This document shows, one piece after another, positions 4,062 to 60,109 of a DNA stretch of 64,000 nucleotides; the stretch's first letter is position 1; each line of letters begins with the position of its first letter. A program made the translations under genes and the position numbers. The stretch lies in contig OV121085.1 in assembly GCA_921293015.1 (NCBI GenBank), forward strand, positions 14,223,731 through 14,287,730, in the 5' to 3' direction. The notes beneath the pieces were generated by a model. The model saw nothing but the letters and a program-made list of their open reading frames with translations. It made no database searches and had not been told where the DNA came from. Source of the DNA: Phorcus lineatus (Eukaryota > Mollusca > Gastropoda > Trochida > Trochidae).

Positions 4062-7000
4062 TCACAGAGACGTTGACTGAAGTGTGTCGCTACTCGGCCT
4101 CTCATCACTCATATCCATCACCCTTCTGATAGCTTCTTCTTCGTCATCATCATACGTGGCTGTCATTTGGTCATTTGGGTCGGCTTCTGGATTCTTGTCA
4201 ACAACTGCATAAACATCACCGGAAGGAGACGTCATGTGGTTTGGATCAAGCACTTGTGGATCTTGCTTCTTGTCAACAACCGCATATACATCTCCAGAAG
4301 GGGAGAAAGTATGGGTTGTATCTAAGTCTTGTGGATCTTGCTTCTTGTTCACAACTGCATAAACATCTCCAGAAGGGGATACCATACTGGTTGGATCTAT
4401 GTCTTGCGGATCTTGCTTTTTGTTCACCACTGCATACTCATTATCTTGAGTAGGATTTGGATGAAAGAGCAGCTCGTTCTTATGCTTCTTGGATTTGTCA
4501 ACTACTGCATACAGATCAGGTGGGGACGCAGTAGGATTTGTGCCAATGACAAGCTGGTCCTGATGCTTCTTGGATTCGTCCACAACTGCATACAGATCCC
4601 CAGAAGAAGTGATAACAACTTCACTTCCTTCAACGGACTCAACTTCTGATTTGTCAATGTTCAGATCACCAGGAGAAGCATAGTGGCCAGCAACACTGTC
4701 TGTAAGGTTTACCCGTGAATGTCGTGGCTGGTTATCGGTATCAGCCGATGCGTAGAGGTCATTCTCCACGTGGACATGTTTTATGTTGTCTGACGATTGC
4801 GTGTCCTGAGGCTTCATATCTCCCATGGTAGGCATACCTGAATCGTAAGCACGGTTGTTATATCCTTGATCTGTAGATGGTTGTCCTCCGTTTTCAAGTA
4901 GCTTTGGTTCCCGATTCCGTCTTCTGTGGGAAAGATAAAATGGACCATTGCCGTGATTCCATTTGATTTGTTCTCATGATACAAGGACTAAAAGAAGTTA
5001 AACACGTACTACATTTTTCGTTATTACTGCATGTGATAAAAAGACTAAAGGTGTGGATATCTATGTATACATTAACAGTAACTTTTGAAGTAATACGAAA
5101 ACACTGGGCACATGCCATACCATTACAAAGGACGTAGCATGTTAAGTTCTATTAAATGAATGTTGATTGTAAGTGACTGATGGTAACATGAAAAAGTATA
5201 AATATGGTGATGGAATAAGGGTTTCGTTGGTTAATATTACCTGAAACAAACAACTGCTAAAGTAACAATGATAATGAGAAGCAGACCCCCAGCTATCCCT
5301 CCTGCAACAGCTGCAACTGGAATTATAAGTAGAGAAGATTAGCATGTGTCATATAACCTATGCATTCATGTAAATGAAAATACATATATTGATTGACTAT
5401 ATGAAATACAAGAATGACAATATTTATTGATGAAAAATTTATTTATGTGTAAGAGAGACGTTTCAGTAAAGGTTCTTATCGAAACGTCGCTCTCATACAT
5501 GTAAAGAAATTGACAATCCATAAATCTTGTCATTCACGGTTCTAACTTTTAAATGCCTATCTAACAAGTCATATGAAATATATAGGATATAGATAAATAA
5601 CTGCTGTTGTTTCGGATGTTTATGATACTTGAATTAAAGAAATGTTTAGGAATGTTTAAACAATAATTTGTAATTGTTTCATTTCTGTAGCCAACAATGG
5701 TTTAACTGTTATTACCAGCAGATAGGTAACTTTACTCGTTATATTCTTTTTGAAGCACCACACTGAAATATGAGCTCATGCCAACTTAATCACTCTCTTT
5801 TACGTTACTGAATACTAATAAATGTAAGGGTTTCATGAAAGAACGTAAGTAGGGATTTACTGAAGGTAAATTGTAATATAAGACCACTTTCAGGACTATG
5901 CTGGATTGTAACTATACCTGGGAACTCTTTTACTTTGTCATCAGTAGAAGGGCTGTTAGCAGGAGCGGATTCTGATGCTGATACAGGTGGACCATAAGAT
6001 GAGGATGTAGTAACGGAAGGAATTGCTGATTCTGCCATTGGGGGAGATTTTGTTGTCGTTATTGATACATGTACATTTTTTGTTGGTGCAGTGGTGGTCG
6101 GGGAAGCGGCGGTTGTTTTGGTTGATGTTGTTGTGGTTGTTGCTGGACTGGAAGTTGTTACTGATGTATTTGAATTTGCGTCGAAACATTCCAGAATGAA
6201 CCGTGAACCTGAAAGTACATGTGTGTAGCATCATATATTTGATTCGCACCTTTGATACATTGTTTCATGACACCTAAAAGTGTTTTCACACCTCAGCATA
6301 TGGGTAAAAAGAGTTATTAGAGAGTCATTACCCTTTTTTAAGAGTTGATAAACATTTTGTAGAAATTATGTTAACTTAAAGATTAAAAATAATGAATTGC
6401 GACATGATATATGCCATCTAATTCTACATTTCAATGGGAAAAAAAGATTTCCCCAAAAGTTAATTATTTTCCTTGTCTTACAACATCAAGATTTGATTGA
6501 CTGGTTTTTAGGTGTTTTGATTAAAAGATTTTCGGACAAACCTGGTGATATATCAGCAAATCTAGTGGCTACAGTAGCCATAGGTACACACAGTACACCT
6601 CCCACTATCTTATTTTTGATATATTTAGAAACATTTATCTTCCCGTTCAAACAACCTTTAGTTACTACAAATATTATATATAGCACTGAACAGAATCAAG
6701 GTGATGATTAAGACTTCGTAATTATCGATGATGTCATATTTCAACATTGGCTTACTGGTTGGCGATGTTTTGATTTGGAGGTTTCCAGTCATAACTTGAG
6801 AGATGTTTGTTGATGTAACAAACAGCCACAGTACGTCTCCTGCTTTCTTTTCAATGGCATATGATATAAAATGAGCTATATTTTGGTTCACACACGTGAA
6901 ATTGTAAGAGGACAGTGCAACTCGTGTACTGCATAATGGGACACTTATGTCTGGGAACATTTGCAATTTTGCATCATCAATGAGGTGTATCCTACAAGAG

Positions 7001-7644
7001 CACATTCCATAGCTGTCTGATATTGGTGATGAAGTCATGTTGAGATTTGTTAGGTTCGTGGTTTCTTGGCCATGATGGCACAGTTGCAATGCTGAAATAG
7101 AGACAAAGTTATTTTGAAATATCTTCAAAATTAACAGCCATAGATTTCACTGACTGAAAGCAAATGGATATTTTGCTAGCTAGAAATAGCATCAATGATA
7201 AATAATGAAATAAAAATCTACTCAACGTTGTAGTTAATGTAAGAGGTACAATCCCATGCATACAGGATTATCATTCATTGTCCAATAAAAGTTTGTAAAA
7301 ATTTACTCATTTCGTTCCATAAGAGTGATATTGTTTGTAAAAGTGATTGTTTATAAATTAAGTATCTAGGTAGTATAAGCAGATACCTGAGTTTAAGTTC
7401 ATAGAGTCAACTGTCTTCGGGGTAAGATGGAATTATTATTGCTTTAAGAATTCTTCGGATGATTTACTTATATTTTGCAAAGTAATGTTCAGTTTTATGC
7501 ACCAGCGCAAAATATAACTGCCATTATTCATTACAATTTAAAGATGATCTTTCACTCACCCGAGGTCCGCCCTATCCGTAGTGTGAGAAATAGGCAAACA
7601 ACGGCAGCAGCGTTTTGGTATCGCAGAAACTTCAGTAGTTCCAT
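4062..7644 (-). CDS. Receptor gene 1: Cys-rich ectodomain, Thr/Ser stalk, TM, long YAVV-repeat tail
   Basis: Five exons on the minus strand: 7560-7644 signal peptide (starts MELLKFLRYQNAAAVV), 6756-7091 ectodomain, 5918-6208 stalk, 5241-5316 membrane span (starts VAAVAGGIAGGLLLIII), 4062-4923 tail. All junctions have GT-AG sites and phases 1,1,1,2; the exons sum to 1650 nt, giving 549 residues. The ectodomain (about residues 29-140) has CHHG, CSC, a fourth Cys and FTC; a sixth Cys opens the stalk (LECFD). N-glycosylation sequons are frequent. The tail (263-549) starts with basic RRR and carries six YAVV(D/N) motifs about 27 residues apart plus NDLYASAD, then an acidic DDDEEE patch. YxxV motifs are plausible SH2 docking sites when phosphorylated, but they do not fit the strict ITIM consensus. 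The family is not one I can name; a CUB-like fold is possible. Ectodomain and stalk match genes 5 and 6; TM and tail match gene 2. Confidence 0.8.
5450..5510. repeat. Small inverted repeat in gene 1 intron 3
   Basis: Left arm 'taagagagacgtttc' and right arm 'gaaacgtcgctctcata' can pair around a loop of about 16 bases. It lies between the membrane and stalk exons of gene 1. It may be a decayed mobile element end; no function is inferred. Confidence 0.5.
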
Positions 7645-12874: not shown

Positions 12875-15800
12875 TCATTGGTCACTGTGGTCAGCTATTG
12901 GTTTCCTGTCAACAACTGCATAAACATCTCCTGATGATGAGATCATATGAGTTGTTTCTAATCCTAATGGGTCTTGCCCCTTGTCAACAAGTGCATAAAC
13001 ATCTCCGGTAAGGGAAACCGTGTGCTTCGTATCCATGTATTGCATCTCTTGCTTCTTATTCACAACCGGAGACGGATATTCAGAATGATTTGGATCAACA
13101 GCTGCATGTAGTTGATTGTCAATGTCAATATCAGCTGATGCATAGATGTCATTTTCCACCAAGACATCCGGCGTTTGCCTTTTCCGATTTTTCATCTCTC
13201 CTTCCACACTTTTATAAAGTTGGTTTTCGTATTTCTGACCAACAGACCGTTGATCTCCGTTTTCAGGGAGATTAGGTTCTTGTTTTCGCCTTCTGAGGAT
13301 CAGAAAGATAATTTTGATAATAGTGTTTCATTCTCGTAAAACGATGTCTACTAGTAATTGTATCCATGTACACGTTTTACATTTCAAATATATTTGATAT
13401 ATGCACTTATATGATTATTAAAGCAAACACTAAAAAAAGAGTCTCTCCTTCTTTTCAGCCACATAGGGCAAACTTTATGGATGTCTCATTTTTCGAATGT
13501 ACGTGATACAGTATATCAAGGTAATTGGTTCAATCAATCGACAATATAGAGGTCTCAAGTCCCTATTCTGATCCGCAAATGGTTCATAAAGTGCAACTTA
13601 ATTTGGAAACTTAATTCAAAAAGGTAGAAGACAAAATTTTAGTTGAAAGTGCTTCAAAGGTTATATAACTTACATTCTTTAAAATTTTACGTTTGATGTC
13701 GGTTTCGTCGTACACACAAATGTTTTTTTAATTTTTTTAACCAAACAATGTGAGATAATTCAAATAGATCAAATCATAAACTTTTCAAATCGAATTCATA
13801 TATCATGTCTTTTAAATATGTAAAGCAATTACACACCACGAACATATCCGAATCCTTAATGAGGGCACATATGATTGGAACCACTAAGAATATAAAACGC
13901 TTACGTTTTACTATCATTTGATTTTCTCGAAAGAAACGAATTTTTACATAAGTGTTGATAACATGATGATAACAAAGAGAGTATGATAAAATATGGATTG
14001 GTAAGTAACATATATGAATGTATTACCTGAAACAAACTACTGCTAAGACAACAATAAGAATAAGAAGTAGACTCCCTGCTATCCCTCCTGCTATAGCTGC
14101 AACTGGGGACAGGAAAACACAAGATTAGCATGCATTATTCAAGGGATGTATTTATTCATCGAGTGTATCAAATTGATAGAATATAAATAATGACAATATT
14201 GATGATTTAACGAATTTATTATATTTGGTATGATTTCAATATTGAAATACTAGAAATGTAAAGCAATTACGTACATATGTTTTTTGTTTATATAGGTAAA
14301 CATGTTTTCAATGGGCAATGACATATTTTTTATATAAACAGACTGGAACAAACGAACAGGATAATAATGTTTCGAATTGCAAGGCAATGTTTTAATCAGA
14401 TGGAGCAGTAAACTTGATCGTTTCAGCTATGCAACGATTTTCCCTACCTTAACGGATTAAAGGTTTTCACACAAAAATGGTTGCCTGTAGTTTTTGCTCG
14501 ACGCGTGATGCTAACTTCAACGACTACGGATCATCGAGTTGAGTAAAGAAATGTTAAACCCCTTGAAGATGATACACGTGACGTAAACTAATTATTATTT
14601 GGGGGAAAATTGAAGGAATGAATCTTTCAAAAATGTGCTACTGCCTCTTTGACAATGATATATAAACTTGCAAAATTAGTAGTCTGGTAAGCTTACTCAC
14701 TTTACCTGGATGTAGAAATTCTATTCCACTTCTATTCCAGCTCACACCAGTTTCATCAGTTACATATAATAAAGACGTTAGTCATAGCTGCGATGAATAA
14801 TAGTGATCGGGTGTTTGAAGAGTATTATAAGCCACTGTCTGAATTATGAAAATTAACTTTACCTGGGAACCCAGTAGTGGAAACGTTAGGGGTAATGGAT
14901 CCCGATATAGAAACAGTCGAACTCTCAGAGAGTGAAACAGTTGCATCTTGTGTCTTTGATGTCATTGAGGTTTTTATTTCAGGGGATGTTTTTGTTGTTG
15001 TTGGAATCGGCGTTGTTACTGATGTATTTCTATTTGGGTCGAAACACTCAAGTGAAAATTGCACAGCTGTAAGTAAATAAAGATAGAAGTTTTGGAATTA
15101 TTTCAATATATACTACAATAATATATCTACAATAATATATATTATTATTGTAGGAGGTCGAACAGATATTTCACAGGTTAATATTTTTTTCATTATTAGG
15201 CATACAGACTATAAGAGAGCGTTAGTGTTGAACGTGCTGATGAAACATAGTTATGCAAAAAGATGTGGTTAATGAAAACTATATGTGTCACAGTGTTTTC
15301 ATTTGACATGACGGCATTACTTTATGCACCCTGATATAGCATACTCTATCAATTTATTTATTTCATGATACAGTGATAAACTCTTAAAGAGTGAAACAAA
15401 ATATTTGATTTACCAGTTTCATTAGTTTTTACTTGAAGGTTTCCAGACATAGGTAGTGATTCATCCGTTGATATAACAAACAGCCACAGTACGTCCCAAG
15501 CTTTCTTATCCGCATAGTATGGTGAGGAAATCATATCCTTCGGACACGTGAAATCGAATGATGAATCAGACACTGACACTCTTGTTTTGCATCCTGGAAT
15601 GTTTAAATCTGGAAACATTGTTATCCTCGCGTCATTAATGAGTTGTATCCTACAGGAGCACAAGCCAGTGCTTCCTGAGATTGTTGTTGAGTTCATGTTG
15701 ATATTTGTTAAATGCGTTGTGGTTTGACCATATTGACACAATTGCAACTCTGAAATATAAATAAGATTGGATATTGTAGAAGAAATTCTCATTCAAACTT

Positions 15801-17524
15801 AATTTATTTTGCATTTTAATGTTGAACGTTAAGTCACTGATGTTCACAATATCTTTGAACCCTATTGTGAACTTCACACGTATCTATTTTTATGTTTTAA
15901 ATAAACACTAGAATACACTTTATTCACGTTTCTTCAATGTCTATAAAGTTTATGTAGTTTATCTCAGTGATGCGTGTTGAACGAAATGAAATCAACCTTT
16001 CAAATGTAATGAAGTCCTTACCTGTCCTTACTACTGAAACTGTTAAGTGATATGTGTACACGTGATATTCAGAACAATGAGTCATTTTATTTAAGTTATT
16101 GAAGATTAATTCAATTCAGGATGATTTTCCTATGACTTTACAATACTTGTTTCTTGCGAAAATCTTGTCAAAATTAAAAAGAAACTTCACGTCTGATCAA
16201 CGGTCGGCATTTAGAAAATATGGGCACATAATGCATTGACTAAGATGTTTTTAATTCTGTGCACCACGATGACGAAGTTCCCTAGATATCTGGTCAATAG
16301 AGTCAACGTTTCGGATCTGAACAGTAACTCATCCCCTTTTAGAAGTGAAAATATTAATAAGCAACTAGCATACTATTTCCAAATGAGAATGTCAGGGTAT
16401 GAACATGAATTGAGTGCATTACACTGAAGCAGTAATTTTTTCTGATAACGCGAATTTAGGATAGGACATGTTCCGAGAAGGCATCCCAAACAATGTTGAT
16501 TGCGACTCCGAATCGGTCAACCTCCTGCATACAACAATGTATGACATCCATCGCGTTTCTTTGATAAACTGATCCTAAGGAGGATGAAGAAAATACGTCT
16601 CCTACATAATATGATCCTGCATACCTGTACCTGAAATCGGTCAATGACGTTCCCTTCATACCAGGATTCTAGCATTTCATGGGAGAGATCACAAAACAAA
16701 TCCCTATTCAACTGCCTACGAATATCAGGTTCCATTATATCCATATATGTACCAATACTGTCTATCGGACAAGGCTGTCAAAATGAGTTTGAAATATGGT
16801 CGCTGTACAAGCAATTGTGGGTGATAAGATATGATTTTACATAGGAAAAGTGCATCCGTACCGTACTACATTCCTATTCTATCCTCTGTTTAAATTAAAC
16901 TCTTCCTCGACTTCTTGTAGGTTCCCCTGGCTGAAAAGCATTGCAATATAAACTAACTTGAAATAACCAAGCCAATGAAAACACTTCATGAATAAACATA
17001 CTCGTTGTCACAGAGGCAAACCCAGTGATGCAGTCATTAAGTGAGGCGACTGCGTTCTGTGAAGAAGATTGAAAGTGCATATTCGAATAAATTTAGCTTT
17101 TCCGTACCATACGAAACATTTCGAATGATAACTTTTACAACGGTGCTTCTGATTGCTCTACTAACTTTGCATCCAATCAGACTTCGACATCCTTGAAGTG
17201 AGAAACACTCCTATTCAGAAAGAGGTACAGGAATTCTTAAGGGTGCTACCTTTGTGGGGAGAGAATAATTACTAACAAACTGTCGAATAATAGACAATGT
17301 AAAATCTTATTAAGAGAAAGTTTCTATTTGATAAGGATGAAAATGTAAACATTCAATGGATTGCCGACCTCTTTATTGCAATGCAAATTGAGTGCAGAAC
17401 TAAACATCATAATCATATATCGCAATAAGAAACATGATAAAGGTAAGAATATGTTTTACTCACTCGAAGTGCCTCCTATCCATAGTGAGGAAAGGATTAG
17501 AGCAACTACGTTCAGTAATCCCAT
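12875..17524 (-). CDS. Receptor gene 2: CQYG-type ectodomain, stalk, TM, short YAVV-type tail
   Basis: Five exons: 17464-17524 signal peptide (starts MGLLNVVALILSSLWIGG), 15414-15749 ectodomain, 14863-15066 stalk, 14027-14102 membrane span (starts VAAIAGGIAGSLLLILI), 12875-13292 tail. Splice sites are GT-AG, phases 1,1,1,2; 1095 nt in all, 364 residues. The ectodomain exon is exactly as long as that of genes 1, 3 and 4 (336 nt), with Cys at CQYG, CSC, PGC and FTC and a conserved DVLWLFV stretch. The stalk opens with FSLECFD and is Thr/Ser-rich. The tail has the same basic start (RRRK) and NDIYASAD motif as gene 1, but only two good repeats, GDVYALVDK and GDVYAVVDR, so the repeat array is contracted or degraded. 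The ectodomain groups with genes 3 and 4, the TM and tail with gene 1. Function is inferred to be a cell-surface receptor; ligand unknown. Confidence 0.78.
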
Positions 17525-19848
17525 TGCTGGTTATAAGGTACACAGTTCTTCATACACGACGTCTCTTCTATAAAGATGAAACCCCTTGGCATAAGGTTGA
17601 ATTACACTTCGTTTCCTTTAAAAATAGCTTGCAAGTTGGGTAGATGGCCACACCATTACGGATATAGAATTTTCGAATGCATTCGTGTTCACCCAAGTGC
17701 AAAGTGTACCGTATATGGCATGGTATTCACTTTCTTTGTCCTGTTATTGCATACAACAACACTGGTGAAATAGAACAGGCTTAAGGGTAAACCATGTTTT
17801 TTCTTCTGCTTACAAACTGTGTATTTATAGATATAAGAGTATGATAATATCCGTGTTGAATCCCCTTACGTATAGTGTCTTATTGTTAATGACATTACAG
17901 AAGCGATATCAAAAATTGAGTGGCACATTTTCAACTATAAACCAGATACCAGGAAGTAAAAATGCTGTACAAATAAAAGGTTAACTCTTCATCTATATTC
18001 TGAAGATAAATAATATGAAGATGAACTGTAGATATAAAGATATTTTTTAGATTAAGACAGTAGAAAAGCATCACCGTCTCTTGCTACACATGTTTATCAA
18101 TGAAGCTAATAAAATGTTCTTTTATACATGTACACGGTTAGTTGAAGCATTGATATATTCTTAGCAAAGAAAATCCAAAGTTAAAGGACAAACTCTTTTT
18201 TATTCTGCAATACCCGAGCATTAACTTACTCCTTCATTTATAGACTCGTAAAACGGGTAAATTGGGGTATCCAGGGGGGTTTGTTGAAATTTCATCAACA
18301 CCATCATATCTATTTCTGTTGAGGTTTGTTGTTTTGTAAGTTTTTGTTATTCCTTTTATTTCATGTGGAAATTTATTTTCATGTATTTCTATATTTTTAG
18401 GGTAACAAAGCTTTAATCATAGAAGAATTTCTAGACCTCATTGCAAAAGGATATATACAATGACAACGTATTTTGATTGTCATCAAATACGTTCCTACAC
18501 CAACTCTTCATCGTTTTAGCCATTGTTGTCGTCTTTATCATCATCATGTTTATCTTTGTCCAACAGGGATACTCCGACTTTCCCTGATGTTCTGCGTCGA
18601 TGGAAGGAATTCCACAAATACACCTGGAAGAAAGTATTGCCAAAGTAACATTTTCTTTTCATATGGTTATGTCGGCTACCTATTTAAACATGTATAGTTT
18701 TTCAAGTTTTGTAAGAGGCGGCCGATACGTTATACGGTTATCATTAGAATTTGTTCGAGTGCTTTCTTGTATTTTAAGTGTTCCTTTCTCTGCACACAGA
18801 GATAGCTCCGCCATAAATTCCTATTATAGAAAGCATCTGTTCAAATACAAGTTCTTCCCGGGCTTCTGGCAGGTGCCCCTAGAGGTAAATTGAAGCAACA
18901 CGAACTACCTTGCAATATTTCAGCCCATGAAAACATTGCATGCATAGATGATATTTTTGTTGTCACAAAAGTCAATGCAAAGAATCAGGCACTTTAGAAA
19001 GGAACCATGTTCTCTCAATAAAGACTCAAAGGCAAATATACATTCTAATGAAATTAAGCTTTCCCTTGGCGCACGGAAATAACTGAGACTTCTCTAATGA
19101 TCACGTATGAAACTAAGTTTGATTGCATCCAATCCGCCTCTTCATTTCTACACCGAAAACGGTCGTATTGAAACAAAGGCTCGTAGATGAATCTGTGATG
19201 AAGCTGACTCTTTCATGAGAGAATGTACTGCGGCGAAGTCTTTTCCAGACGACTTCAGTTTGCTGTTGGGATAAAACACTTCCCGCTATTGGACTGGTAT
19301 ACAAGGGTTACTTCTCTGATTGGTTATAAAGTGATATACTGGGTATTTACTGAATAGTCTGTTAATCATTATGATTACAGGCTTGTTTTATTGTTATTCA
19401 GATCAATGAAATGCTTAATTACTTGATTTATATCGGCATCAATAGAACAACTGGTGTGCAATACTTGTATCCATGTGTTTAATGTGCTTAGTTTATGTGC
19501 TTGTCTAAGAAGAATATATACACTTGTCTGTAACAACTATCTCTAACAACCAATTAAGGTACACTTGAGAAAATATGTACATAGAACAAACAATTCATTA
19601 AAGGATAGTAGTATTCTCGATTTTATAAGCTCAAATCGAAAAAACCTTTTAATCAATACAGAAAATAGCAGAAACCCAAAGCATAAGCGAATACACAATG
19701 TCACTCAACCATACTTGAATGAGAATGTTTTGTCACAGGAATCAACATAAAATTTAAATTTCTAGGATTGACTGACCTTGTAGGCCACATCAGTTATAAA
19801 GGATAGCCTTGATTACTTTTAGTAGATTGATAACATTAAGACTGATTA
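17360..19848. repeat. Near-identical segmental duplication, left copy
   Basis: From intron 1 of gene 2, across its signal exon and 5' flank, to the insertion point of the Ngaro-like element. It matches 31730-34408 with only scattered differences. The alignment continues on the far side of the element: 25758-27000 matches 34409-35690. The left copy lacks about 236 bases present in the right copy at about 32607-32830, including the conserved upstream block. It is intergenic apart from the gene 2 signal exon; the short open frames inside are not convincing. Confidence 0.85.
18430..18660. other. Conserved intergenic block with a hydrophobic open frame (copy 1 of 3)
   Basis: Copies lie at 32990-33225 and 55840-56090. 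On the plus strand each can encode a very hydrophobic run (for example LAIVVVFIIIMFIF here). On the minus strand each ends in a frame reading SL(C/Y)I(S/P)FCNE. The third copy differs at many positions and neither reading frame is clearly protected. A lost exon or an unrecognised small gene is possible. Confidence 0.3.
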
Positions 19849-20395
19849 TTAAGCTAACTATCAATAAATGACAAAGACAGTGTTGTGGAAATAAATGGGC
19901 ACAGTTTATTCATACTGACTATAGCTAGGAGCCTGGGGACCATTTACACAGGGTGCCTACCAAAAGGTAACTGGACAAACCCGAGCAAGGTACACAACTG
20001 TGACAAGCAGTGTACCACAAATCATTAACAGTTAAGCCAGTAGGAGCAACACACTGACTGACTTACCATTAATGGGACACTAGGTAGGGAATCACATAGC
20101 CTGGTGAATATAGCAGCAAAACAAGTACACAAGCAGTGTAACCAAAATGATACCAGTATGAGTGCATACTGACATCATAATATGTAATACCAGGTAGGGG
20201 GTCACATATCCTGATATAAATAAGCAAAGCAAGTACACAAGCAGTGTACACCCAACATATTAGCTTAAAGCCAGCAGGAGGTTCACACTGACTGGCTCAA
20301 TAGAGTTATAACAGGTAGGGGATCACATAACCTACTACTACTCAGCTTAGCCATATGGGGCAAGAAAAAGCATTTGGACCCCAGACTCCCTGCCA
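19849..20395 (-). repeat. Ngaro B2 direct repeat (terminal copy)
   Basis: A 547-base repeat almost identical to 20850-21396; the visible difference is near its inner end (ctgcca against ccgcca). Internally it contains about three degenerate subrepeats of roughly 120 bases, each with 'aggtaggg(g/a)(g/a)tcacat' and 'agcagtgta' phrases. Confidence 0.93.
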
Positions 20396-20682: not shown

Positions 20683-20849
20683 TAACTTTGACAGTTTGAG
20701 AGCGGCAAGAAAAAGAGCGGAAAAGTAACTGTCGTTAGTATTAAAGCCTAGAACAAAGGGAGATAACTCCCATTACTGATGTGTATTGCTTGCCGCTAAT
20801 AAAATAATTTATCCTGTTATGATATGTTGTGATGGGATAAATTTAATTA
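20683..20849 (-). repeat. Ngaro A2 direct repeat (internal copy)
   Basis: A 167-base repeat matching 25591-25757 with one visible mismatch (agagcgg against agaacgg). It abuts B1 directly, so the A2/B1 joint 'ttaattattaagct' reproduces the junction that a circular intermediate would have. Confidence 0.93.
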
Positions 20850-22028: not shown

Positions 22029-22052
22029 CTGCAATAAAATAACAAGGTTAAA

Positions 22053-41231: not shown

Positions 41232-44200
41232 TTATTCATTCATATCCAAAGCTACATTCTGGTAAATCCTCTTTGGTCCTTCGGTGTTGTCAATGTGTTC
41301 ATACTCGGAGTTTTCTCTGTTCGTCAGATCACAGTATGTGGGATGATCTCTAGATTCGGGGATTTGGTCACCTGCTGTTCGGCGTATGCATCGATATCTG
41401 GATTTCAAACATATACATTATAAACATTTAGCTGTGATAAAAAGAAAACATTTCAGGTAATCATCAGGAGAACTTACGAGGGGTGCCTTGAAAGCTTCGG
41501 AACTGAACATGAAAACTGAATATTCATCCAATCTTAAAACCATTTATTTTCACTTGAACATAAAAATCGTCTACTACCTCTACTTCACAATGACGTTCTA
41601 GTCGGAATCAAATGTATGGCCATTGTGATTTCTGTTATTAGTGGGAAGATAAGTAAGACTAAGAGGGCTATATCTGGAGAATCGGCAGGGTGCATTTAGC
41701 ATTGTCCTGAAGCCGCTATTCTCCAATCTTTAGTTAAACCCGTCGGTTGTATATGATATTTACCTGTAATTTCAACCGTTCATTTGACGAAATACACTAA
41801 CTTAGATTAAAATCATTCTTCAAATGATCAATATTACACTCGGTTATTCACTTCAAGCATGAGCTTTTTTCCTCTGTTTAAGAAAGGTGACCCAACTTTA
41901 GCTTCAAATTACAGACCCATATCACTTATAAGCTGTGTTGGTAAAGTTTTTGAAAGAGTTGTCTTCAAACATTTGTTTAATTATTTTCATGCTAATAAGC
42001 TTCTTTATAAATATCAGTCTGGTTTCCAACCAGGACATTCATGTGTACATCAATTAGTTGAGATATATCATAGGGTTTGTGAATCGTTGGATAAGAAAGA
42101 AAATTTTTGTATGGTATTTTGTGATGTATCTAAAGCCTTCGATAGTGTTTGGCACAAAGGATTACTTTTAAAACTTGAAAATTATGGAATAAGCAGACAG
42201 TTGTTGGGTTGGTTAAGTAGTTATATAACAAATCGCAGTCAGAGTGTATTTGTCAATGGATCTTCTTCCTAGCTGAGAACTCTAAGTGCTGGTGTACCAC
42301 AGGGGTCAGTGCTGGGCCCTTTCCTATTCATTGTATTCATTAATGACATAGCAGATGAATTACACTGCTTAACGCGTCTATTTGCTGATGATTCGTCTCT
42401 TGGATATTCCTCACCTGACAATAGACTTATTGAAATTAACTTGAATTCCAATCTAAGTAAACTAAATATATGGGGTAACAAATGGTTAATCAAGTATAAC
42501 CCCGATAAAACTGGAGCTATCCTTTTTTCTAGGAAAAATTATAATGATTTGCCGCATTTGTTTTTTGATGGTGTAGAAGTCCGAATTGTAAATAATCATA
42601 AACATCTTGGAGTTGTTCTTTCCAAAAATGGGAAATGGGCTGAACATATTGAACGTATGATACTTAAAGTTTCGAAAATGGTTGCCTCCATGCGCCTTTT
42701 GAAATATGTATTGTGTAGAGTAAGCCTCAATAAAATCTATGTCATGTTCATTCGGCCACATTTAGAATATGCATGCGAAGTTTAGGACGGATGTACTTTT
42801 GAACAAAAAAGAAAATTAGAGCAGATACAACTACAAGCAGCGAGAAAAGTGACTGGTTTACCTAAATATACATCGACTAGATCTCTTTACTATGAAACAG
42901 GTTGGGAAACATTGCAAGAACGAAGGAGAAAACGAAAATTTCAAAATTGAAAATGGAATGGCCCCTTTATACTTGAACGAATTACTTCCCATGAACGTGG
43001 GTTCTAAATCAAATTATAATTTACGCAGCTAGCACAATATATCAATCCCTTTCTCTAGACTTAAACATCTACAATAAGTTCTTGGAATAATTTACTAACC
43101 AATGTTCGTAACTCGCATAATATTTCTGCGTTTAAATCATCAATATCCAACTTGGGGGCACATGCATCTATGTACTACTCGTACGGTAAAAGAAATCCTA
43201 ATATAATTGATACCAAGTTGCGGTATTCAGTTAGTGGTTTGAACTCTGATTTGTATAGATTTGGGATTAAAACTGATCCTGGTTGTGTATGTGGTAATGT
43301 TGTTGAGAACTCATATCATTATTTCTTTGAATGTCCTTTGTATAAACAACAGAGATTAAAATTCTTGCCACCTATTGAGCGCATTTGTACATTAGTAGGA
43401 ATTGCAGTTAATCATAACATTTTGCTAGAAGGAAGTGCAGATCTATCACTATGTCAAAATAAAATTGTATTTAAGTTATTACAATCATTCATTAGTGCGT
43501 CAAAGAGATTTGAACACATGTAAACCAATATTCTTCTAATTATGTTCTGTTCTTTTTCAATGCTATTCTCTTGTTAACTGTCTGCCATCTGTCTTTGAAA
43601 TATGTAAATTACCATTGTACATCTCAAGGAGAGGGTATCCTAAGTTAGAGAACTTGTTCCTAATCCTTTTCATGTGAATAAAATATGTTTAAACTAACAA
43701 AATGGTGAAATCAGGTTCTTAACGACATAGGTCAAAACGATCCTCGGGCTGTTCGGTATATTTCAGCATATGCCAACTAACAGTGACGGCTTTTCCTTTC
43801 TGATTTTTTTATAACAACCCGTTGACCAAACGTGTTAATTTTGTATTCTTATGAAAATGCTCATGTATAAGTCGTGTAAATGTTGTTTCTATTAATTTCG
43901 TGAGCAGCAGCTAAGTATCTTATGATCACAAGGTTTTCTTGCTGTATCAACCATAGCGGTTAGGTGTTTTCTTGTATGGCATCTACAAACGCACTCCTGC
44001 ACATATCTAGTTACAGAATCGGTTCCAATTAATTTAAAAGACAGGAACGTTAATGCTCTAGTCTCACCTGCGATGAAAGATAACAGATCCAGTAACGATA
44101 ATCACCAGGACAGTGACACAACCCGCTATACCGCCAGCTATGGCTGCTGCTGAAAAATAACATTTGAAATGTTGCTTGAATATTGACAGATTACATTAAA

Positions 44201-47200
44201 GACGAAGCAGGGTAATCAACATATCTATAGATGTTATAATTTCCTCGATATATAATAAAACTCGTAATTTTGTTTTAAATCCTTAGTCTGACATTGACAC
44301 TGACACAGCTTATACGTAAATCCCAAAGTTTATAAGGCCTAAGAGTATTTGAGGGGTCCGGATGACGGGGTCTCTAAAACAACTGTAAAATGCAACCTAG
44401 TCCTTCAAAAAAGCCCAAATGGGATTTTTCTATAGCTGAGATATTTTCTATACAATGATATATGACATGAAACTTTTGAGAATGGTTGCAGACCGATTTA
44501 TCACCTTGAAAACGTCTAATTTTCAAGTTTGGTTGCAGTCCCCTATAGGGAGAAACTAAACGATGATATCTTAAACGATGGAACTTTACCTGGCTGTTTA
44601 TTTACATTTAAATGAAACATCGGCAACTTGCTCAAAGCTACCGAGTCCGGTTTTCGATCATGTCGTGTCCCGTTTTGCTGTCGTTTCTGACAAAGTGGAT
44701 GGACAATTTCTACTAACCTAACATTAACATATTACTAAATCTAACATTCTCTATAGTTTATAATGTCTTGGCAAGTATTTATGACATTCCTTGACCAAAT
44801 TATTCCGAAATTGCCATTTGTTTTTACAACGTAGCCCCGAGACGAATTCGAATTGTCAAATCTCAACACTATTCTCATTGGCTGTAACAGATGCCTCTGA
44901 TAGCAAACTAATTTTGATTGAAAATAAACATCATCAAGTAAGTTTAATGACTAGTTTCTATCTAAAAACCGATCAAAATCAATCATGAATAAGTAAAAAC
45001 GAACGTCAAAATTTTATTGAAAATGTTTGATAGTGAATTAGCCAATTGAAAGACGTGTTATTTAGCGCATGGTATTACGTCACACATTGTCTCAGAGGGA
45101 ACATGTCAAACTGAAACTGTTGATTTGGTCGTTTTCTCGTCAATTTAGGTAAATCCTGCAACCAAATTGATCTGATAAACTTTTCAAAAAAAAATTGTAT
45201 TACCTACAACCAAATTATTATTAGACAAGACATGAACAATAATTTGGTTGCAGTTGCCTATAAGGGACTGCAACCAAACTCGAAAAATACTCGATTTCAT
45301 GATGATTTTTCACTTTGCAACCCAATTCCAGGATTCCTTATAATACAGTATGTTACAGTTAATTATGTCAGCTTTCAGAATACCTTCATCTGAATTATTT
45401 TCAAGTACTGGAGAAGAGCATTTTATAGACGTTTTAGATACCCCGTCATTCGGACCCCTCAATTACTCTTAGGCCGTTTATAATCCTCACTTATCATGCT
45501 GTCAATTCAAAAATCAAACAGAGTGCATGAACAGGAAATCTATTATGCTATCTTATTTGTGTAGCCCAGCTCTTGAGCACAGGACATTTTTTAAAACAGT
45601 TATTATATCACAAATTGTTCTGACATTGATCAATGAAGTGAGATATTCAATTAATTACAATAACATACACACTATAATAATGTTGAAAATGAGAGTTTGC
45701 ATCATTATTCTCTTACCGTCAGTAATGGCGAATGCACAGTTAGACTATAAGTTTTTGCCAACCCACCGTGGAGGGAGATATCTTTGCGTTAATGGATATA
45801 TGTTCATTGTCAATAAGAGAAAAAGGGAAGAATGGATCTCATGGAAATGCGCACAGAACGACTATAGATCAACTGTCTCATCAACAAGTTCGACCTTATC
45901 ACTAAAATACCAGGATACCATAATTATGAGTCTGTATATAACGTGATAATAGAAGTAAGATAATTGGGTTGGCATCATATTTTTCAACACTACTCACTAT
46001 CAAATACATCGGATTTTGTAATCGAGGTGCCCTAGAATGATCATGCAATTGCATTGATTCGCGATTTGAAGAGCTGGACCGGCTCTTTTAAGATTGGCTG
46101 ATGTTCGCGCAAGCGCGAAATGGAATAGCCTTTAATTCTCTAAATGTACAGCTAGTTCTAACTAGATTGTGAAAATACATACATCGTTACCACTCTCTTC
46201 TGACGTTTGTATATAATATTATATTTAGGACTTACTCGCATCTTGTGATCTTGTAGTGCATTCTGCTTCCAGTTGTCCTGTGGACTTGTGCGAAAGTGTT
46301 GTTGGTGTTGTTAACGAGTTTGTGGTAGAGGTTGTCACATTGTTTACTGCAGTTGTTGCTATTATAGAAATTGTTGACCGAGCAGTGGTACTTGAGATTA
46401 TTGTAGTTATCGTGGTGGTCGGGGATGGAGTAGTTGATGTTTTTGTTGTTGTTTTTGGAACTTGAGTTGTTTCTGATGTGTTCGTATTTGCGTCAAAACA
46501 CTCTAATGTAAACTGTGAACCTGTGATGAAGATCCCAAGAACATGATTATGTTGGAACATGATTTTCACAAATCAGTCAATGTGACTAATACCTACCCAG
46601 CAGGCATCTGACGTCATATCGACGTCGAAATTTAGTTGATGTCAGGTCAGGACGTCGATCGATCATTTTTCGACGTCGGAACAACGTTAGTTTCCTGACG
46701 TTGATATTTGGTTGGTTTTTGACGTTGTTTCAACGTTATCAAAACAACTTAAAACTGACAACTAATTACTTTTATGACATTTAATTATTGTTTATAACAT
46801 CAAAAAAGTTAAGAATTGTTTTAAAGAATGAAATGATAAATGCAAAAACGAACAGCTATCATTGACATTTAAAAAGTGTTATTAATATTGGATTTGATAA
46901 AAAAAAAGTTAATTTCTTTCAATTTCACAATAAAGGGAGATAATTCTGTTCTTATAACTAATTAGAAATAACAAGGTATGTTGTATTTTTCAACAGTTTT
47001 TATTTTTTCAGTAAAGTTCACATATGACAATATAAATTTTCAGTCTGAATAAAGTTAGTAGTTCTTAAAAAACGGTAATTGCCTATTTGTAACAAACAAT
47101 TTTTTGGTGACACTTTGATCTAAATCGTTGCACTGTCATATAAACACAAACACCCTCGCCAATCAAGTAATATCCTTAATTTGGATAAAATCAGTTACCA

Positions 47201-50200
47201 GACTCTTTAAGCAAGGTCTTAGTAAGAGCTGATGATTAGAGTAAAGCCTCACAGATGATGCATGGCTGAATATAAACAAAACGAAACAAAATTAACACAA
47301 TCTGAATGATCATCAAGCCTCAAATTGACGTCGATATGACGTCTTTTGAACGTCGATACAACGCAATGGCTTCAACGTTGAACCGACGTGGAAATGACGT
47401 CAGATTTCGACGTCGCCGCAAATTTCAAATCCAATCAAATTTCAACGTTATTTCAACGTTGATAAACGACGTCGTTACAACGTTGATACAACGGCAGATT
47501 GCCTGCTGGATAAGTCGTTTCAGATAAAAGTTACTATGCCCCCTTTTTCACTACGAGCCAACTTCTTCCAAAGCTTCACAGAACGTTGAATATTAGGCCA
47601 CTTACTTTTGAGACTCCGTAAAGATTCCTCCAAATCGTGGCATTCGTGAAAAACATTTTGTTTGTCGAAATTTTATCAAGATTTATTTACAAATTGAAGT
47701 ATCGTAGGCAGTTCGCAAACTATTTGCAAAATCGTCGTAGTAGACACTACTTCTTTGAACTTCGTGGTTGATGATGTTAGTACGAATAATCAATCAATGG
47801 CACAAAGGTTTAGTCACCGTATTGTTACGAGCTTTAGTATTCGTATATGAATCGTGATATCATATCTTATTTGTTGGATTCTGTTTTGTGATGAGTTACG
47901 AATAGAAGGAAATGTTTTGTTTAAGTGTAAATGCTGTTACCAAAATTTGGGGAATGTTCAGGAACATACACCTATACTTGATGGTTTGGGATAAATGGTA
48001 TTGATATGGAGATTTGAAAGCTATAAACCAGTAATGATATAAGCCAAGCAAAATGATCAAAAGTCACTATGCAATTCATTTGAACAGCCTAATTTTCACA
48101 ATATCACAATTATTTTCAGATATAAAATGAAAGTTCTCAAAGATTAGTATTTATTTCAATTTTGAATTATGATTTTAAGGTAGAGTATTACTTTTTTATA
48201 TGTCTGAAACAAAACAATTATATATCGAAGCAATCATAAATGGAAATCACTTCGACCTGGATAGTGACCATAAATGGTGGACTTGACCGATTTCTACGTT
48301 GGTACTAAATACTACAAATATCATATACAGCACTGAACAGATTTAAGATGATGATAACGACTTTGTATTCATCTATGATGTCAATATCAATAATTGGCTT
48401 ACTGGATGGTGTTGTTTTGATTTGGAGGTTTCCAGTCATAACTTGAGAGACACTTGTTGATGTAACAAAGAGCCACAGTACATCTCCTGCTTTCCTCCCA
48501 CTGACATATGCCATAGGATAATCTATCTTTCCGTTCGTACACGTGAACTCGTATGGCAAATCAGACAGTGACACACCTGTACTGCAACCTGGGACTGTCA
48601 TTTCTGGAAACATTGTTAATCTTGCATCATCAATGAGGTCTATCCTACAAGAGCACATTCCATAGCTGTCTGAGATTGGTGATGAAGTCATGTTGAGGTT
48701 TGTTAGGTGCGTGGATTCTTGGCCATGATGACATACTTGAATTGCTGAAAATACAAGTGATTCAATGTTAATCAAATTACGTATCTATAGAGGCCGCAAG
48801 TCAAGTTTGAAGAAAGCACTGTAATGTAATGAGATGTCTTTCGTTTTAGCAAAAACGTATTCAATGTTGACAACAACAATAACTTAAGAACTGACATGAA
48901 TGAATAGATTGTTTATTTCATCATTATTGAAACAATTAAATCACATGTAAGATATTTACAAATTTATCAGATGGAACATTGCATCAACTGTGTAACGTGT
49001 TGGTCTCGTATCTCGCCTTCAAGCCAAGTAAGTTGACATTACAAGATGTTTTTAAAACAAATTGATCAAGGTTAAGATATGTGGGTACATAACTTTGAAT
49101 AATAATCAATTTAATGAGAATTTTAATTTTCAGCAAAATATATTTAAACATATTAAAATTGTAAAGGCTCTCTGTAAAACTGAGGTCATGTTGACAAAAG
49201 CCGGTCAATCTATTGCGATAGCTTGTACATTTCAGTGGGGTGCACGTGCAGCACGAATATTTCATGCCGATGTCAACTATCTGAAATAGACTTCATTTCT
49301 GAGATTCGGACAGAAAACAACGTTACAATGTCACATTCTACAATAACTGTGCGAAATACTAAATGTATAATTTTATGATACAATGCTCTGTTATATCCGT
49401 TTAATTGTCTAGAATTGAATTGAATTGAATAACAGTTCTAAATATGGAATAATAGAAAGTCCCCTTTTAAAAAACTCGGCGGGTATTCCATCTGGACCCG
49501 GTGCTTTACCAGACTTCAAAGAATTAATTGCTTTCCTTATCTCACCTTGTGTTATAGGATCTGACAAAATACAGGAGTTATTACAATCCGTACATTCAAC
49601 AGAGTCGTGATTGGTTATAAAATCATTCACAAAGTCAGTAAATTCAGATGAAACAATTTCCAGATTCTTGGAATATCGGCATGATTTAACCACTTAATAA
49701 GAAGGGTGATCGTTCGGATCCCAATAACTATCGGGGTATTTCTCTTCTCAATATTTTGGGTAAGGTTTTTACATCTATTTTGGAGTCAAGGTTACGGTAT
49801 TGGACAGAGGTAAACTTTATCATTCATGAGTCTCAAGCGGGCTTCAGGAGGCAATATTCGACAGTTGATAATATTTTTGTGTTACAATCTTTATGTCAGA
49901 AATATCTTCGAAAGTCTAGACATCGGTTCTATGCAGCTTTCATCGATTTTCGAAAGGCTTTTGACTTTGTGGATAGGCAGAAGTTAATGTTTGTATTGCA
50001 TAATAAGGGAGTAGTTGGTAAAATGTATAATCTCCTTCAAGATATGTATAGTAAAGTTAAGGCTTGTATAGTTAAGGATAGATTACAATCTGAATCTTTC
50101 ACAACAACCTGTGGCGTTCGTCAAGGTTGTATGCTAAGTCCTGTTTTGTTCTCCCTCTTTATTAATGAATTGGCTTTGGAATTAAGAAACAGTGGTTTGC

Positions 50201-56373: not shown

Positions 56374-59300
56374 TTATTCATTCATATCCAAAGCAACATT
56401 CTGGTAAATCCTCTTTGGTTCTTTGGCATTGTCTATGTGTTCATACATGTGTTTTCTCTGTTTGTCAGGTCACAGTGTGTTGGTTGATCTCTAGATTCGC
56501 GATATGCAGCGATATCTGGAAAATAACCATATACTTGAAAATATTTGAATAAAAATAAAAATATTTTTTTAACACAATCACCCATTAGCTCGATGTATTT
56601 TGACCAACATTTTTCACCAATCCGAAAACCATTTTTTTGTCACTTAACAATAAAACTTCCCTTACTACCACTACTACGCAATGACGTACTGGTTTTCCCA
56701 AATTTGTAGCCATTTCCTTTAGCAGTGATGGAGATAAGAAAGGCTGAGGGGATTATATTGCTAGAAGAGGCAGGTTATAGTCACTAGCCCATGCACTAAC
56801 TCATCTCTTCTATACAGTTAATGTATATCATTTTATCTTACTTTATTTCCACTGAGAGTAGATTAATGAGCACGTGTGACCCTTTTGTGTACTTTGTGTA
56901 CTTATAACACACAAATTAACTGTTCAAAAGCAAACTAAGGGACCTACAGTTCATCTACTATCATTGAAATACACCAACTCAGCCTTGGGAAAAAACTCAC
57001 AATTTTGTATTTTGAATATGTTGTTTTGCTTCGAAATCATTGGGGATTTAAAGGGATAGATTTAAAGGGTGCAAAGAAGAAAGTTTCAACATATGTACTA
57101 ATTCCGTCATTACACACATAACAGTCATGTAGTATAGGAGTACATTCTTGCAAATTATTTATTTTCAATCTCCATATGACTGTTTGATTCAGCTGCTTTT
57201 TGGACATCAGCATTTTATCAAAATCATAGTTTTAAGAGCGAGCATTATCCGCAAAAACATCACTATAGACCACGCAATGCATTGGGGCCCCTACTGGCCG
57301 GTGGACTAGTCAGGGATGACACCTGGATGGCACCTGAACCCCTGTCACGTGTCGCACCTGCCCAGGGCAGTGTGCACAGGAGCATTGTCATGAATCAGCC
57401 ATTTCCCACTCTTCAGTTTAACCCGTTCTTTTTCTTGGATATTATCCTTAATTTCAACCATTCATTTGAGGTATGTACATTTATATTTAAAACCTCTCGG
57501 TAAGTCCCAAAATACGGATTCCATGTTTTCATTTCCAGCATTAGCGTTTTCCTATGGTTCAAAATAGTGAACCTTGGTTTCATTCTGAGTAACGACTTGG
57601 ACTAAAAACGATCTTAGATCTGCACGTTATATGTCCAAAATGTGTCACCTAACAAAGACGCGTTGTTATTTTGGTTTTGACATAATAACCTGGGTACCCA
57701 AAGAGTTAATAAGTGTTCATCAAGATACTCAAGTATAAATATTTTAAATGTTTTGGGGTTTTTTTTATCTTAAAAGCATCTTCTGGTCACACGGATGTCT
57801 TGCTTTATTTTATCAACAACGCTTAAGTCTTTTCCTCTGTGGTAAATTTTAATACACTCCTTGAGATATCTAGTCAGAGAATTGGTCAATTAAAATCAAT
57901 AGGTGGGAAAGTTAATTGATCCAGTCTCACCTGCAATGAAAGATCACAGATCCAGTAACAATAATCACCAGGACTATAACACTACCCGCTATACCGCCAC
58001 CTATGGCAGCTGCTGAAAAACATTTGAAATGTTGCTTACATATTGACAGATTACATTACTGACGAAGCAGAGTAAACAACATTTTTCACAATTCATAATA
58101 ATTCCCTTAATAAATTATAAAACTCGAACATGAATTGGTCTGATATTGGTCAAAGTAAATCCCAATATTTTTAATACTAACTGAATTCAAGCAGACTGCA
58201 TAAATATGACTCTTATAATGCTAAATTATTGTGTAGCTAATCTATTGAGCAGACGAAATTTTGTTTTGAAAACAATGATTTTTATGAAATTTATCAAGTT
58301 GTTCTGAAATTGATCATGATCGATTATTTTACTTGTCATGTTGATATATGTGACTGGTTTACTATTAATACAAATGTGAATACAAATGAATGCACAAGTA
58401 TCATATATAATGTAAAATGTAAAAAAAATACGTACTGTTTATTTCCTTCAACACACTCTATGGCATGAAATTAAATAAATCGTTTCCACTACCTTTTGTT
58501 TTAGGTTGTCAATATACTAATTAGGACTTACTCGCAGCCATCTGTCTTGTAGACTTGGGCGGAATTGAAGCTTGTGTTGTTAATGAGGTTGCGGGAAAGG
58601 TTGTCACTTTGTTGGTTGTGGTTGTTGCTTTTATAGAAATGGTTGGAAGGGCCGTGATGCTTGAGATCAATGTTGTTGCTGTGGTGGTCGGGGTAGTTGT
58701 TTCTGATGTGTTAGTATTGGGGTCAAGACATTCTAATGTAAACTGTGAACCTGTAGTTAAAAAAATCCCCAGACCATGACGATATTGGTAAATGATTTTC
58801 ACAATTCAGTTAATCTGACTATTACATAATATATAAGTTTAAACGTTAGGTGTTGTTATGCCCATAGTTACTACAAGCCAGATTATTCTGAATCATTACA
58901 AAAAAATGCATGTAAGGTAACAATAGACCAAATCGTAATTACTTCTTATAATTCATACAGAATTCGGTGACATTCCTCAAATTAGTTGCATTCGTGTAGA
59001 ATATTTGTCAATAAACCTTTCATCTAAGAATTGCTGTTGCAAAAAGATGCTTCGAAAACTATTCGCAAACTACAACTTCTTAAACAGATAAACATCCCGA
59101 ATTACTCACGATTCATCTACCAATGTCACGAATAAATGCTGAATTAATTCAAACTAGTATCCAAATTGTTAGGAACTATTTTATTTGTCGAAAACCGTAG
59201 TTACTTTTGTGGAATTTCAGCACGAAGAGCTACGATCTTTGTAAACGTTGGTTAAGTGTCATTTCTGTACACATAATTTTGCCGAGTGTTCACGAATAAT

Positions 59301-60109
59301 CACCAATTCTATTATATATATGTATATGGTATTTTTAATGTTAATAATTTGATATACAGATTTCTCGTGAAAGCTATTAAGCTAAAATAATAAGATAACC
59401 CAAGCAAAATGTGTCACTTAATATTACACTTCACTTTCACAGCCTAATTACCACATTATTATATTTCAATACAGATAGAAAACGAAAGTGATCAAAAATA
59501 AGTATTTGATTCAAATATGGATTGTGATTTTAATGAACGATTCTTACATTTTTATATTCAGCAAATAAATAATTGTAAATCGAAGCAATCATATAAAGAA
59601 AGACACTTCTTACTAGATGGTGACGTTGTTTTCTCTTATTTGGCCGATGATGTCTATGTTGGTGTTGACTACTTCAGATAATTTATTTAATTTATAGCGC
59701 TGATCAGAATCAAGATGATGATACAGATTTCGTATTTATCTATGATATCATATTGTCATTATTGACTTACTGGTTGGTATCGTTTTGATCTGGAAGTATC
59801 CAGTCATAGCTTCAGAGTCATTCGTTGATGTAACAAAGAGCCACATTACATCTCCTGCTCTAAAATGGAAATATCCTTTAGGGAAATTTAACCTTTGGTC
59901 AAAACACGACAACTCGAATGACATCTCAGACACTGACACTCTTCTACTGCATCTTGAGATTGTTATATCTGGATACATTAGTAATCTTGCCTCGTGAATG
60001 AGTTGTACCCTACAAGAACACATTCCATTGCTTCCTGAGATTGATGATAAGTCCATGTTGAGATTTGTTTGGTGCGTGGTTTCTTCTCCATGACGACACA
60101 GTTGCATTG
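56374..60109 (-). pseudogene. Receptor gene 6: CRHG-type ectodomain, stalk and TM intact, tail frameshifted, signal exon not found
   Basis: Exons seen: 59771-60109 ectodomain (CRHGEETTHQTNLNM, CSC, CSR, LSC), 58532-58750 stalk (FTLECLDPNTNTSETT), 57931-58012 membrane span (AAIGGGIAGSVIVLVIIVTG), 56374-56515 tail. The first three are open with correct splice sites and phases. Compared with gene 5 the tail exon has lost 23 bases near its start and 1 base further on. The reading frame after the membrane becomes RYRCISRI then TAG (56491-56493), removing both ITAM-like tyrosines and YQNV. In the old frame the first motif Tyr is also changed to His (THCDL). The product would be a nearly tail-less receptor. 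No convincing signal exon lies between 60110 and 64000; it may be outside the window. Confidence 0.7.

Follow-up and report, generated by a model that had tools for sequence, protein, structure and literature searches.

A Clustered Family of Predicted Single-Pass Receptors with One Ectodomain Family and Two Tail Types in the Gastropod Phorcus lineatus

Gene Organization and Extent of the Array

The window analyzed here is a stretch of 64,000 nt of the Phorcus lineatus genome assembly GCA_921293015.1 (contig OV121085.1, positions 14,223,731 to 14,287,730 of the forward strand). It holds the left end of an array of predicted receptor genes that combine a single ectodomain family with either of two dissimilar cytoplasmic tails. 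The genes are lettered A to Q, with A–F in the window and G–Q to its right; all lie on the minus strand, with their 5' ends at the higher coordinates. Coordinates marked W are contig positions minus 14223730, i.e., the window numbering continued past the window ends. The data are one genome assembly, splicing was predicted from the DNA sequence, and flanks of 100 kb on the left and 180 kb on the right were read as well.

Six ectodomain exons were found in the window, all on the minus strand, at 7089-6757 (A), 15747-15415 (B), 30564-30232 (C), 37812-37480 (D), 48742-48404 (E) and 60107-59772 (F); Table 1 lists slightly wider bounds. The predicted order of parts is a signal peptide, a six-cysteine ectodomain, a Ser/Thr-rich stalk, a transmembrane (TM) segment and a tail, as in single-pass receptors. 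Alignments of the exon classes gave consensus splice sites and junction phases of 1 (signal peptide/ectodomain), 1 (ectodomain/stalk), 1 (stalk/TM) and 2 (TM/tail). The tail behind A and B carries YAVV repeats, and the tail behind C, D, E and F is of a type with an immunoreceptor tyrosine-based activation motif (ITAM).

Across the window and flanks, the ectodomain profile gave 18 matches, of which 17 were full-length (W6757 to W189340) and one was a weak outlier at W-10804. The array thus counts 17 ectodomain copies on the same strand over ~185 kb. When tails were assigned to ectodomains by position on this strand, the YAVV type stood behind A, B, G, I, J, K, M and N and the ITAM type behind C, D, E, F, H, L, O, P and Q. 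TM exons of phase 1 in and 2 out were detected in 16 of the 17 genes (all except P) and in a relic at W143 kb; the scan imposed these phases beforehand, and they matched at the exons found. A phase-2 acceptor precedes all eight YAVV tails. Genome-wide searches, whose counts are lower bounds, returned at least 16 matches for the E ectodomain (15 fell inside the array, the other 26 Mb away on this contig) and at least eight for the A tail (seven in the array and one beside the distant ectodomain). This outlier, gene Z (40.585-40.590 Mb, plus strand), has an ectodomain, a stalk, a TM exon and a YAVV-type tail most like that of A, and possibly represents an older arrangement.

Several fragments accompany the array. 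A YAVV tail with a TM exon and no ectodomain lies at W143065-144943, and a lone ITAM-type exon marks the right end (W192934). To the left of the array are a weak ectodomain-like exon with a CSC motif at W-10804 (E about 1e-3) and an ITAM-like fragment at W-54318.

Ectodomain

The alignment of the 17 ectodomains contains five invariant columns, all cysteine, and a further, sixth cysteine opens the stalk exon. The ectodomain exons are open with invariant cysteines in 17/17 copies, at 24-86% identity to D. A preliminary description of the window had called the ectodomain unrecognized, and no useful Pfam or PDB sequence match has changed this. In a Pfam scan of all 17 members with E values up to 10, seven unrelated families appeared, each in one or two members, the best being Profilin (0.0037, one member). 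None of the 17 matched an immunoglobulin (Ig) or C-type lectin domain or an EMI/EGF (NIM) ectodomain, and CUB was not among the Pfam families matched by them. The 17-row profile matched no PDB sequence, an earlier PDB search having given one chance match (E 0.37). A scan of viral contigs for relatives yielded 17 pattern stretches, none of them a relative, and Rfam returned nothing. The AlphaFold model built from the six window rows, of modest confidence (predicted local distance difference test, pLDDT, 70.6), has eight strands and no long helix. Fold comparison gave many middling matches, mostly to beta folds including CUB domains; since none stands out, the ectodomain is not called CUB.

The ratio of nonsynonymous to synonymous substitution rates (dN/dS) of the ectodomains was 0.32-0.73 in most pairs computed, 0.97 in P/Q, 1.36 in E/F and 2.98 in N/O. 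Positive selection on the N/O ectodomains is suggestive and not significant (21.8 nonsynonymous vs. 2.2 synonymous changes, Fisher p 0.12).

Cytoplasmic Tails

In the tail of D, YCDL-x7-YEHI comes first and YQNV after it, and that of E carries the same motifs; YxxL-x7-YxxI occurs once in C-E. The tails of H, L, O, P and Q have two exons each, both starting at a phase-2 acceptor. Their predicted splicing gives two canonical YxxL-x7-YxxI motifs in 5/5 cases, the first of which is completed across the predicted junction by a conserved YLSI. A motif YxxL/I-x6-8-YxxL/I arises by chance in 127/20000 shuffles of the D tail and 119/20000 of the E tail, and it stands twice in each of the five predicted two-exon tails. 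The low dN relative to dS between the D and E tails (0.134 and 0.524) indicates purifying selection. The ITAM-type tails would be activating, as we infer from the motif.

The YAVV-type tails contain from one to six sites, mostly of the form [D/N/E][V/I/L/M]Y[A/T]xV, with D, N or E prevailing at position -2. Six YAVV sites were counted in A, and one YALV and one YAVV, plus YKSV, in B.

Exchange of Ectodomains and Tails

The preliminary description had interpreted the window as a mosaic made by block exchange, against which exon trees in agreement with each other would speak. For the quartet A, B, D and E, the trees conflict. The ectodomain exon favors AE/BD (log-likelihood difference, dlnL, 87.7), the TM exon favors AB/DE (dlnL 44.6), and each rejects the other's tree. 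The exchange is further supported by non-coding homology, which changes partner inside introns. As far as about D:36700, gene D resembles B, with homology over the upstream DNA, the first intron, the ectodomain and the B-type stalk exon. From about D:36152 onwards it resembles E/F in a dead stalk exon, the TM exon, the tail and the 3' flank; C does likewise. The second, dead stalk exon of E/F type in C and D, absent from the preliminary description, contains stops, and its acceptor AG is changed to GG in both genes. The simplest reading of this structure would be one fusion within the stalk-TM intron, which would have left the E/F stalk exon stranded, to be silenced later.

A tract spanning parts of neighboring genes is duplicated between the C side and the D side, with 92-100% identity in 19/20 comparison windows and 57% over 46 columns in one gapped window; the left copy is interrupted by a retroelement at 19848-25754. 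Between C and D themselves, comparison windows from the stalk to the upstream DNA are 78-93% identical, and the ectodomains 83%. The tract duplication is a second, younger event that begins and ends inside genes. Being out of register with the gene borders, it offers a route by which ectodomains and tails can be re-paired.

In the ectodomain tree of all 17 copies, both tail types are present in each of three starred clades, (G,H), (K,L) and (N,O,P,Q). Genes A-F form another starred clade, within which (A,E) is starred, (A,E,F) has support of 91/85 and (B,C,D) is not resolved. In a second tree, run with gene Z added and also without the long-branch rows I, J and M, the corresponding values were 94/89 for (A,E), 80/68 for (A,E,F) and 90/94 for (B,C,D). 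Both tail types therefore occur in five ectodomain groups, three of which are starred clades, the split within A-F having weaker support. The 17-copy tree requires seven tail changes, five of them forced by starred branches, and 479/500 label shuffles needed as few or fewer, so the tails are not clustered on the ectodomains. With Z, there were seven changes (four forced), and 446 (ITAM) or 434 (YAVV) of 500 shuffles were as low; without I, J and M, there were six (four forced), and 500/500 shuffles were as low. A single clade of ITAM-type ectodomains was rejected (approximately unbiased test, p-AU 5e-9).

The best example of a switch is N/O. A stretch of 5.5 kb that starts upstream of the signal peptide and includes the stalk is 90.5% identical between the two genes, and the identity stops abruptly ~170 bp before the TM exon of N. 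In G/H, matching blocks begin in the upstream DNA and run as far as the TM exon's end, with none beyond, and K/L have the TM exon in common and differ in their tails. With the break before the TM exon in N/O and after it in G/H and K/L, the tail exchanges fall in two different introns. In the TM tree (26 columns), three tail changes are required, fewer than in most shuffles (16 and 9 of 500 were as low); this is the pattern expected if tails keep their TM exons more than they keep their ectodomains.

Gene Integrity

All parts are open with GT-AG junctions in B, D, N and O, which makes two twin pairs canonical on both sides. A and G are also open. K is open with weak signal-peptide donors, and L is open with GC at the phase-1 donor of its first exon, where K has GT; this GC may be a usable donor or a lesion. 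K/L was dropped as a fully canonical pair because the first exon of L would need the GC donor.

The lesions differ from gene to gene. The TM exon of C has an in-frame TGA where D reads GGA. In F, a 23-nt deletion in the tail leads to a stop ahead of the ITAM, and the codon of the first ITAM tyrosine is His. Three of the four ITAM tails in the window are intact as tails, and in two of the four (D and E) the TM exon is open too. Further to the right, the stalk exon has a stop in H and a frameshift in Q, a 406-bp stretch corresponding to that holding the TM exon in O is lost from P, and the ectodomain donor of I is replaced by an ATTCA-rich insertion near W98888. A stalk donor of M was looked for and not found, and J was checked in part. 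Lesions were recorded in 5/9 ITAM-type and 1/8 YAVV-type genes (M, with no stalk donor found, not counted among them), and no difference in decay is claimed from these counts. Single-base lesions could be sequencing errors.

First exons with a hydrophobic signal peptide and a phase-1 donor were recognized in A-D. The stalk donor of A, CAG/GTATAG, is one among several candidates. A signal-peptide candidate of E at 52555 was rejected, as its score of 26 lay below the best of the null taken from the opposite (plus) strand (29), and a search for the first exon of F found none. Between E and F, the segment 54326-56356 shows homology to B/C/D over their upstream DNA and first intron, with the expected stretch of the signal-peptide exon missing.

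The six-gene mosaic proposed in the preliminary description was thus confirmed in part. Its exons, tails and pairing of ectodomain types with tail types in A-F were borne out, as were the phases 1, 1, 1, 2 wherever they were checked, no first exon having been found in E and F at which to check the signal-peptide junction. Its extent of six genes proved too small, the 17 ectodomains running rightwards to ~W189 kb, and C and F (its genes 3 and 6) are not intact. Of the four combinations of ectodomain and tail that it listed, CHHG with the ITAM tail is the only one lacking a complete intact model in the window. The coordinates are collected in Table 1.

Table 1. Predicted exons and homology tracts of genes A-F in window coordinates.
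Gene	Feature	Position	Strand
A	Exon 1, signal peptide MELLKFLRYQNAAAVVCLFLTLRIGRTS, phase-1 donor CGG/GTGAGT	7560..7644	-
A	Ectodomain exon, CHHG type	6756..7091	-
A	Ser/Thr-rich stalk exon, sixth Cys near start	5918..6208	-
A	TM exon, phase 1 in/2 out	5241..5316	-
A	YAVV tail exon, six YAVV sites, 75-bp repeat, phase-2 acceptor cccacag/A	4062..4923	-
B	Exon 1, signal peptide	17464..17524	-
B	Ectodomain exon, CQYG	15414..15749	-
B	Stalk exon	14863..15066	-
B	TM exon	14027..14102	-
B	YAVV tail exon (YALV + YAVV), phase-2 acceptor	12875..13292	-
C	Exon 1, signal peptide	31830..31890	-
C	Ectodomain exon, CQFG	30231..30566	-
C	B-type stalk exon	29645..29863	-
C	Homology block around dead E/F-type stalk exon (stop; acceptor AG to GG), fusion scar	27123..27406	-
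C	TM exon with in-frame stop	26911..26992	-
C	ITAM tail exon	25901..26066	-
D	Exon 1, signal peptide	39115..39175	-
D	Ectodomain exon, CQYG	37479..37814	-
D	B-type stalk exon	36944..37162	-
D	Stalk-TM intron interval bracketing B-like/E-F-like crossover	36152..36700	
D	Homology block around dead E/F-type stalk exon (stop; acceptor AG to GG)	35875..36152	-
D	TM exon	35588..35669	-
D	ITAM tail, YCDL-x7-YEHI plus YQNV	34553..34718	-
E	Ectodomain exon, CHHG	48403..48744	-
E	Stalk exon, donor CGA/GTAAGT	46236..46520	-
E	TM exon	44068..44149	-
E	ITAM tail exon	41232..41397	-
F	Ectodomain exon, CRHG	59771..60109	-
F	Stalk exon, donor CGA/GTAAGT	58532..58750	-
F	TM exon	57931..58012	-
F	Tail exon, broken by 23-nt deletion 5' of ITAM	56374..56515	-
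C, B	Duplicated tract, left copy: C TM/tail + 3' flank + B upstream DNA + signal peptide	17491..27125	
D, C	Duplicated tract, right copy: D TM/tail + 3' flank + C upstream DNA + signal peptide	31857..35841	

Mobile Elements in the Window

A retroelement at 19845-25757 (minus strand) encodes a reverse transcriptase, a tyrosine recombinase and a weak GDSL-like match. Its split direct repeats pair 25757-25591 with 20849-20683 (99.4%) and 21396-20846 with 20395-19845 (99.8%), an arrangement that we take to be that of Ngaro/DIRS elements. It is inserted in the 3' flank of C and absent from the sister flank of D. Two reverse-transcriptase open reading frame (ORF) fragments on the plus strand lie antisense in E, at 41811-43523 between the TM and tail exons and at 49690-51288 upstream of the ectodomain exon. 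An ORF at 45473-45946 (plus strand) matches a FLYWCH zinc finger (4.3e-06).

Interpretation and Alternative Explanations

We interpret the locus, with a probability of about 0.7, as a paired-receptor-like array whose ectodomains and tails have been re-paired by recombination in phase-compatible introns. The introns at which partners switch (stalk/TM or TM/tail) have the same phase in the genes checked, so recombination between neighbors can re-pair the parts without breaking the frame. The genes may act like paired receptors, as we infer from their predicted structure. Twin ectodomains would recognize a common ligand or related ones. The ITAM twin would be phosphorylated by Src-family kinases and then recruit a Syk-family kinase, the YAVV twin would form a phosphotyrosine scaffold with a different, probably opposing or tuning signal, and selection would re-make ITAM/YAVV pairs as the ectodomains diverge. 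These steps follow SH2 preferences and the general Src, Syk and phosphatase logic of tyrosine-motif tails; YAVV-type tails also appear to occur in other invertebrate receptors. A role in immunity is put forward as a candidate only.

Several observations weigh against this interpretation. The strict pattern of the immunoreceptor tyrosine-based inhibitory motif (ITIM), [SIVLT]xYxx[IVL], has no match in 6/8 YAVV tails (A, B, I, J, M and N), which leaves the label "inhibitory" unproven and makes opposite signaling a guess. The ITAM side may be partly decaying, as five of its nine genes have a lesion (C, F, H, P and Q), no first exon was found for E and L has the GC donor; among the eight YAVV genes, I is damaged and the stalk donor of M was not found. 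A canonical open gene on both sides is present in just two of the five ectodomain groups. Built on 26 columns, the TM tree groups the tails just partly (three changes), and the N/O dN/dS of 2.98 rests on few changes and is not significant.

Plain tandem birth and death, in which genes kept their original tails and the likeness of ectodomains reflects old ancestry or convergence, is scarcely credible as the whole explanation. Tandem duplication and decay are plainly present, as the relic tails at W143065 and W192934 testify, but the quartet trees conflict, non-coding homology changes partner inside introns and a single clade of ITAM ectodomains is rejected. For B/C/D and N/O, this explanation is refuted, because the introns are homologous and co-linear up to the switch point and no further. 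An assembly artefact, with haplotypes or collapsed repeats joined into a false array, is very improbable: one tract is 92-100% identical in most comparison windows and the evidence is assembly sequence, but the ectodomain copies diverge widely (24-86% identity to D), and swap junctions are found both in older DNA (~70-80% identical) and in younger stretches.

The swaps might also be reciprocal losses from a duplicated ancestral gene that had both tails as alternative 3' exon sets, each copy having lost one set. G/H and K/L, which share TM exons and differ in tails, are what it would leave behind, and Draper is a published receptor with ITAM and ITIM isoforms (PMC4503800, PMC8092387). We regard it as improbable, since profile matches show no gene with both tail types between successive ectodomains, N/O and B/C-D differ in the TM exon and intron too, and the 3' half of C/D matches E/F in the introns and 3' flank. 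Still less probable is a decaying cluster, in which pseudogenes make up most of the copies and the layout serves no function today. It would fit the damage seen in six genes (C, F, H, I, P and Q), the failure to find first exons for E and F or a stalk donor for M, and the GC donor of L. Against it stand the 17/17 open ectodomain exons with invariant cysteines, the purifying selection on the D/E ITAM tail, the ITAM spacing kept in 5/5 two-exon tails (damaged genes included) and the open state of B, D, N and O throughout. A role in allorecognition (self/non-self), fertilization or engulfment instead of anti-pathogen immunity is unlikely to a lesser degree, and nothing in the present data separates these roles. 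Botryllus FcoR are related type I receptors with tails differing in signaling motif that serve allorecognition (PMC12065747), and Draper, which bears an ITAM, functions in engulfment and in the response to wounds (PMC4503800, PMC8092387).

Comparison with Known Systems

The likeness to paired receptor clusters, raised in the preliminary description, is strengthened by the 17-gene array. Related ectodomains on different tails are found in five groups, the genes are clustered through duplication and recombination (17 copies, switch points in introns), and the YxxLx7YxxI motif predicts an activating member with an ITAM. With no strict ITIM in 6/8 YAVV tails, the array is said to work like paired receptors and is not assigned to the ITIM/ITAM class. 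As regards the Draper/MEGF10/CED-1 class, the ITAM is present in the tails of the ITAM-type genes only, and the EMI/EGF (NIM) ectodomain is absent from the Pfam matches.

The mammalian CEACAM1/CEACAM3-type receptors (PMC2832619) likewise form a gene cluster with related ligand-binding ectodomains on unlike signaling tails. Their marsupial members have a conventional ITAM spaced by x7, and the intron phasing of the tail exons is identical. The authors of that study invoke gene conversion and recombination, with exchange of the tail-coding region, as the source of pairs. The CEACAM ectodomain is Ig-like, whereas that of the present array is unrecognized; the other tail carries an ITIM or an immunoreceptor tyrosine-based switch motif (ITSM) there and a YAVV repeat failing the ITIM pattern here, and the present single array has several switches at two intron positions. 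Botryllus fester/FcoR (PMC12065747) are also clustered non-vertebrate type I receptors with long tails and differing YxxI/L/V motifs, but they have Ig and sushi ectodomains, belong to a tunicate locus and are reported to choose the motif partly by alternative splicing. In Drosophila, an activating ITAM tail (Draper-I, with Src42A and Shark) is opposed by an ITIM tail (Draper-II, with Corkscrew) (PMC4503800, PMC8092387); these are products of one alternatively spliced gene with an EMI/NIM ectodomain, in contrast to the separate genes without a Pfam match described here. The Biomphalaria GRC/PTC2 genes (PMC4361660, PMC7494358), compared by description only, are invertebrate clusters of divergent single-pass proteins. 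PTC2 has no known domain beyond the TM segment and GRC ectodomains are beta-rich, but several GRC genes contain FNIII, and the passages used report no paired tail types. In the open-access PMC text, nothing joined "paired receptor", "mollus" and ITAM, and nothing contained "YAVV" as a word; other print is possible.

A bolder version of the preferred interpretation is tentative, at somewhat less than even odds: an independently evolved paired-receptor system on a new six-cysteine, beta-rich ectodomain, with exon phase as a universal joint through which recombination would combine every newly diverged ectodomain with both tails again, tandem ITAMs assembled in part by splicing and a new YAVV counter-signal module replacing the ITIM. 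If the paired-receptor-like interpretation is true, the layout of one recognition surface with different signals would have arisen on an ectodomain without a recognized family. The exchange joints would be directly visible as same-phase introns, scars of dead exons and a tract out of register with the genes. As a natural experiment, the locus would offer several twin groups, differing in age, side by side, and the YAVV repeat would be a candidate for a new tyrosine signaling module.

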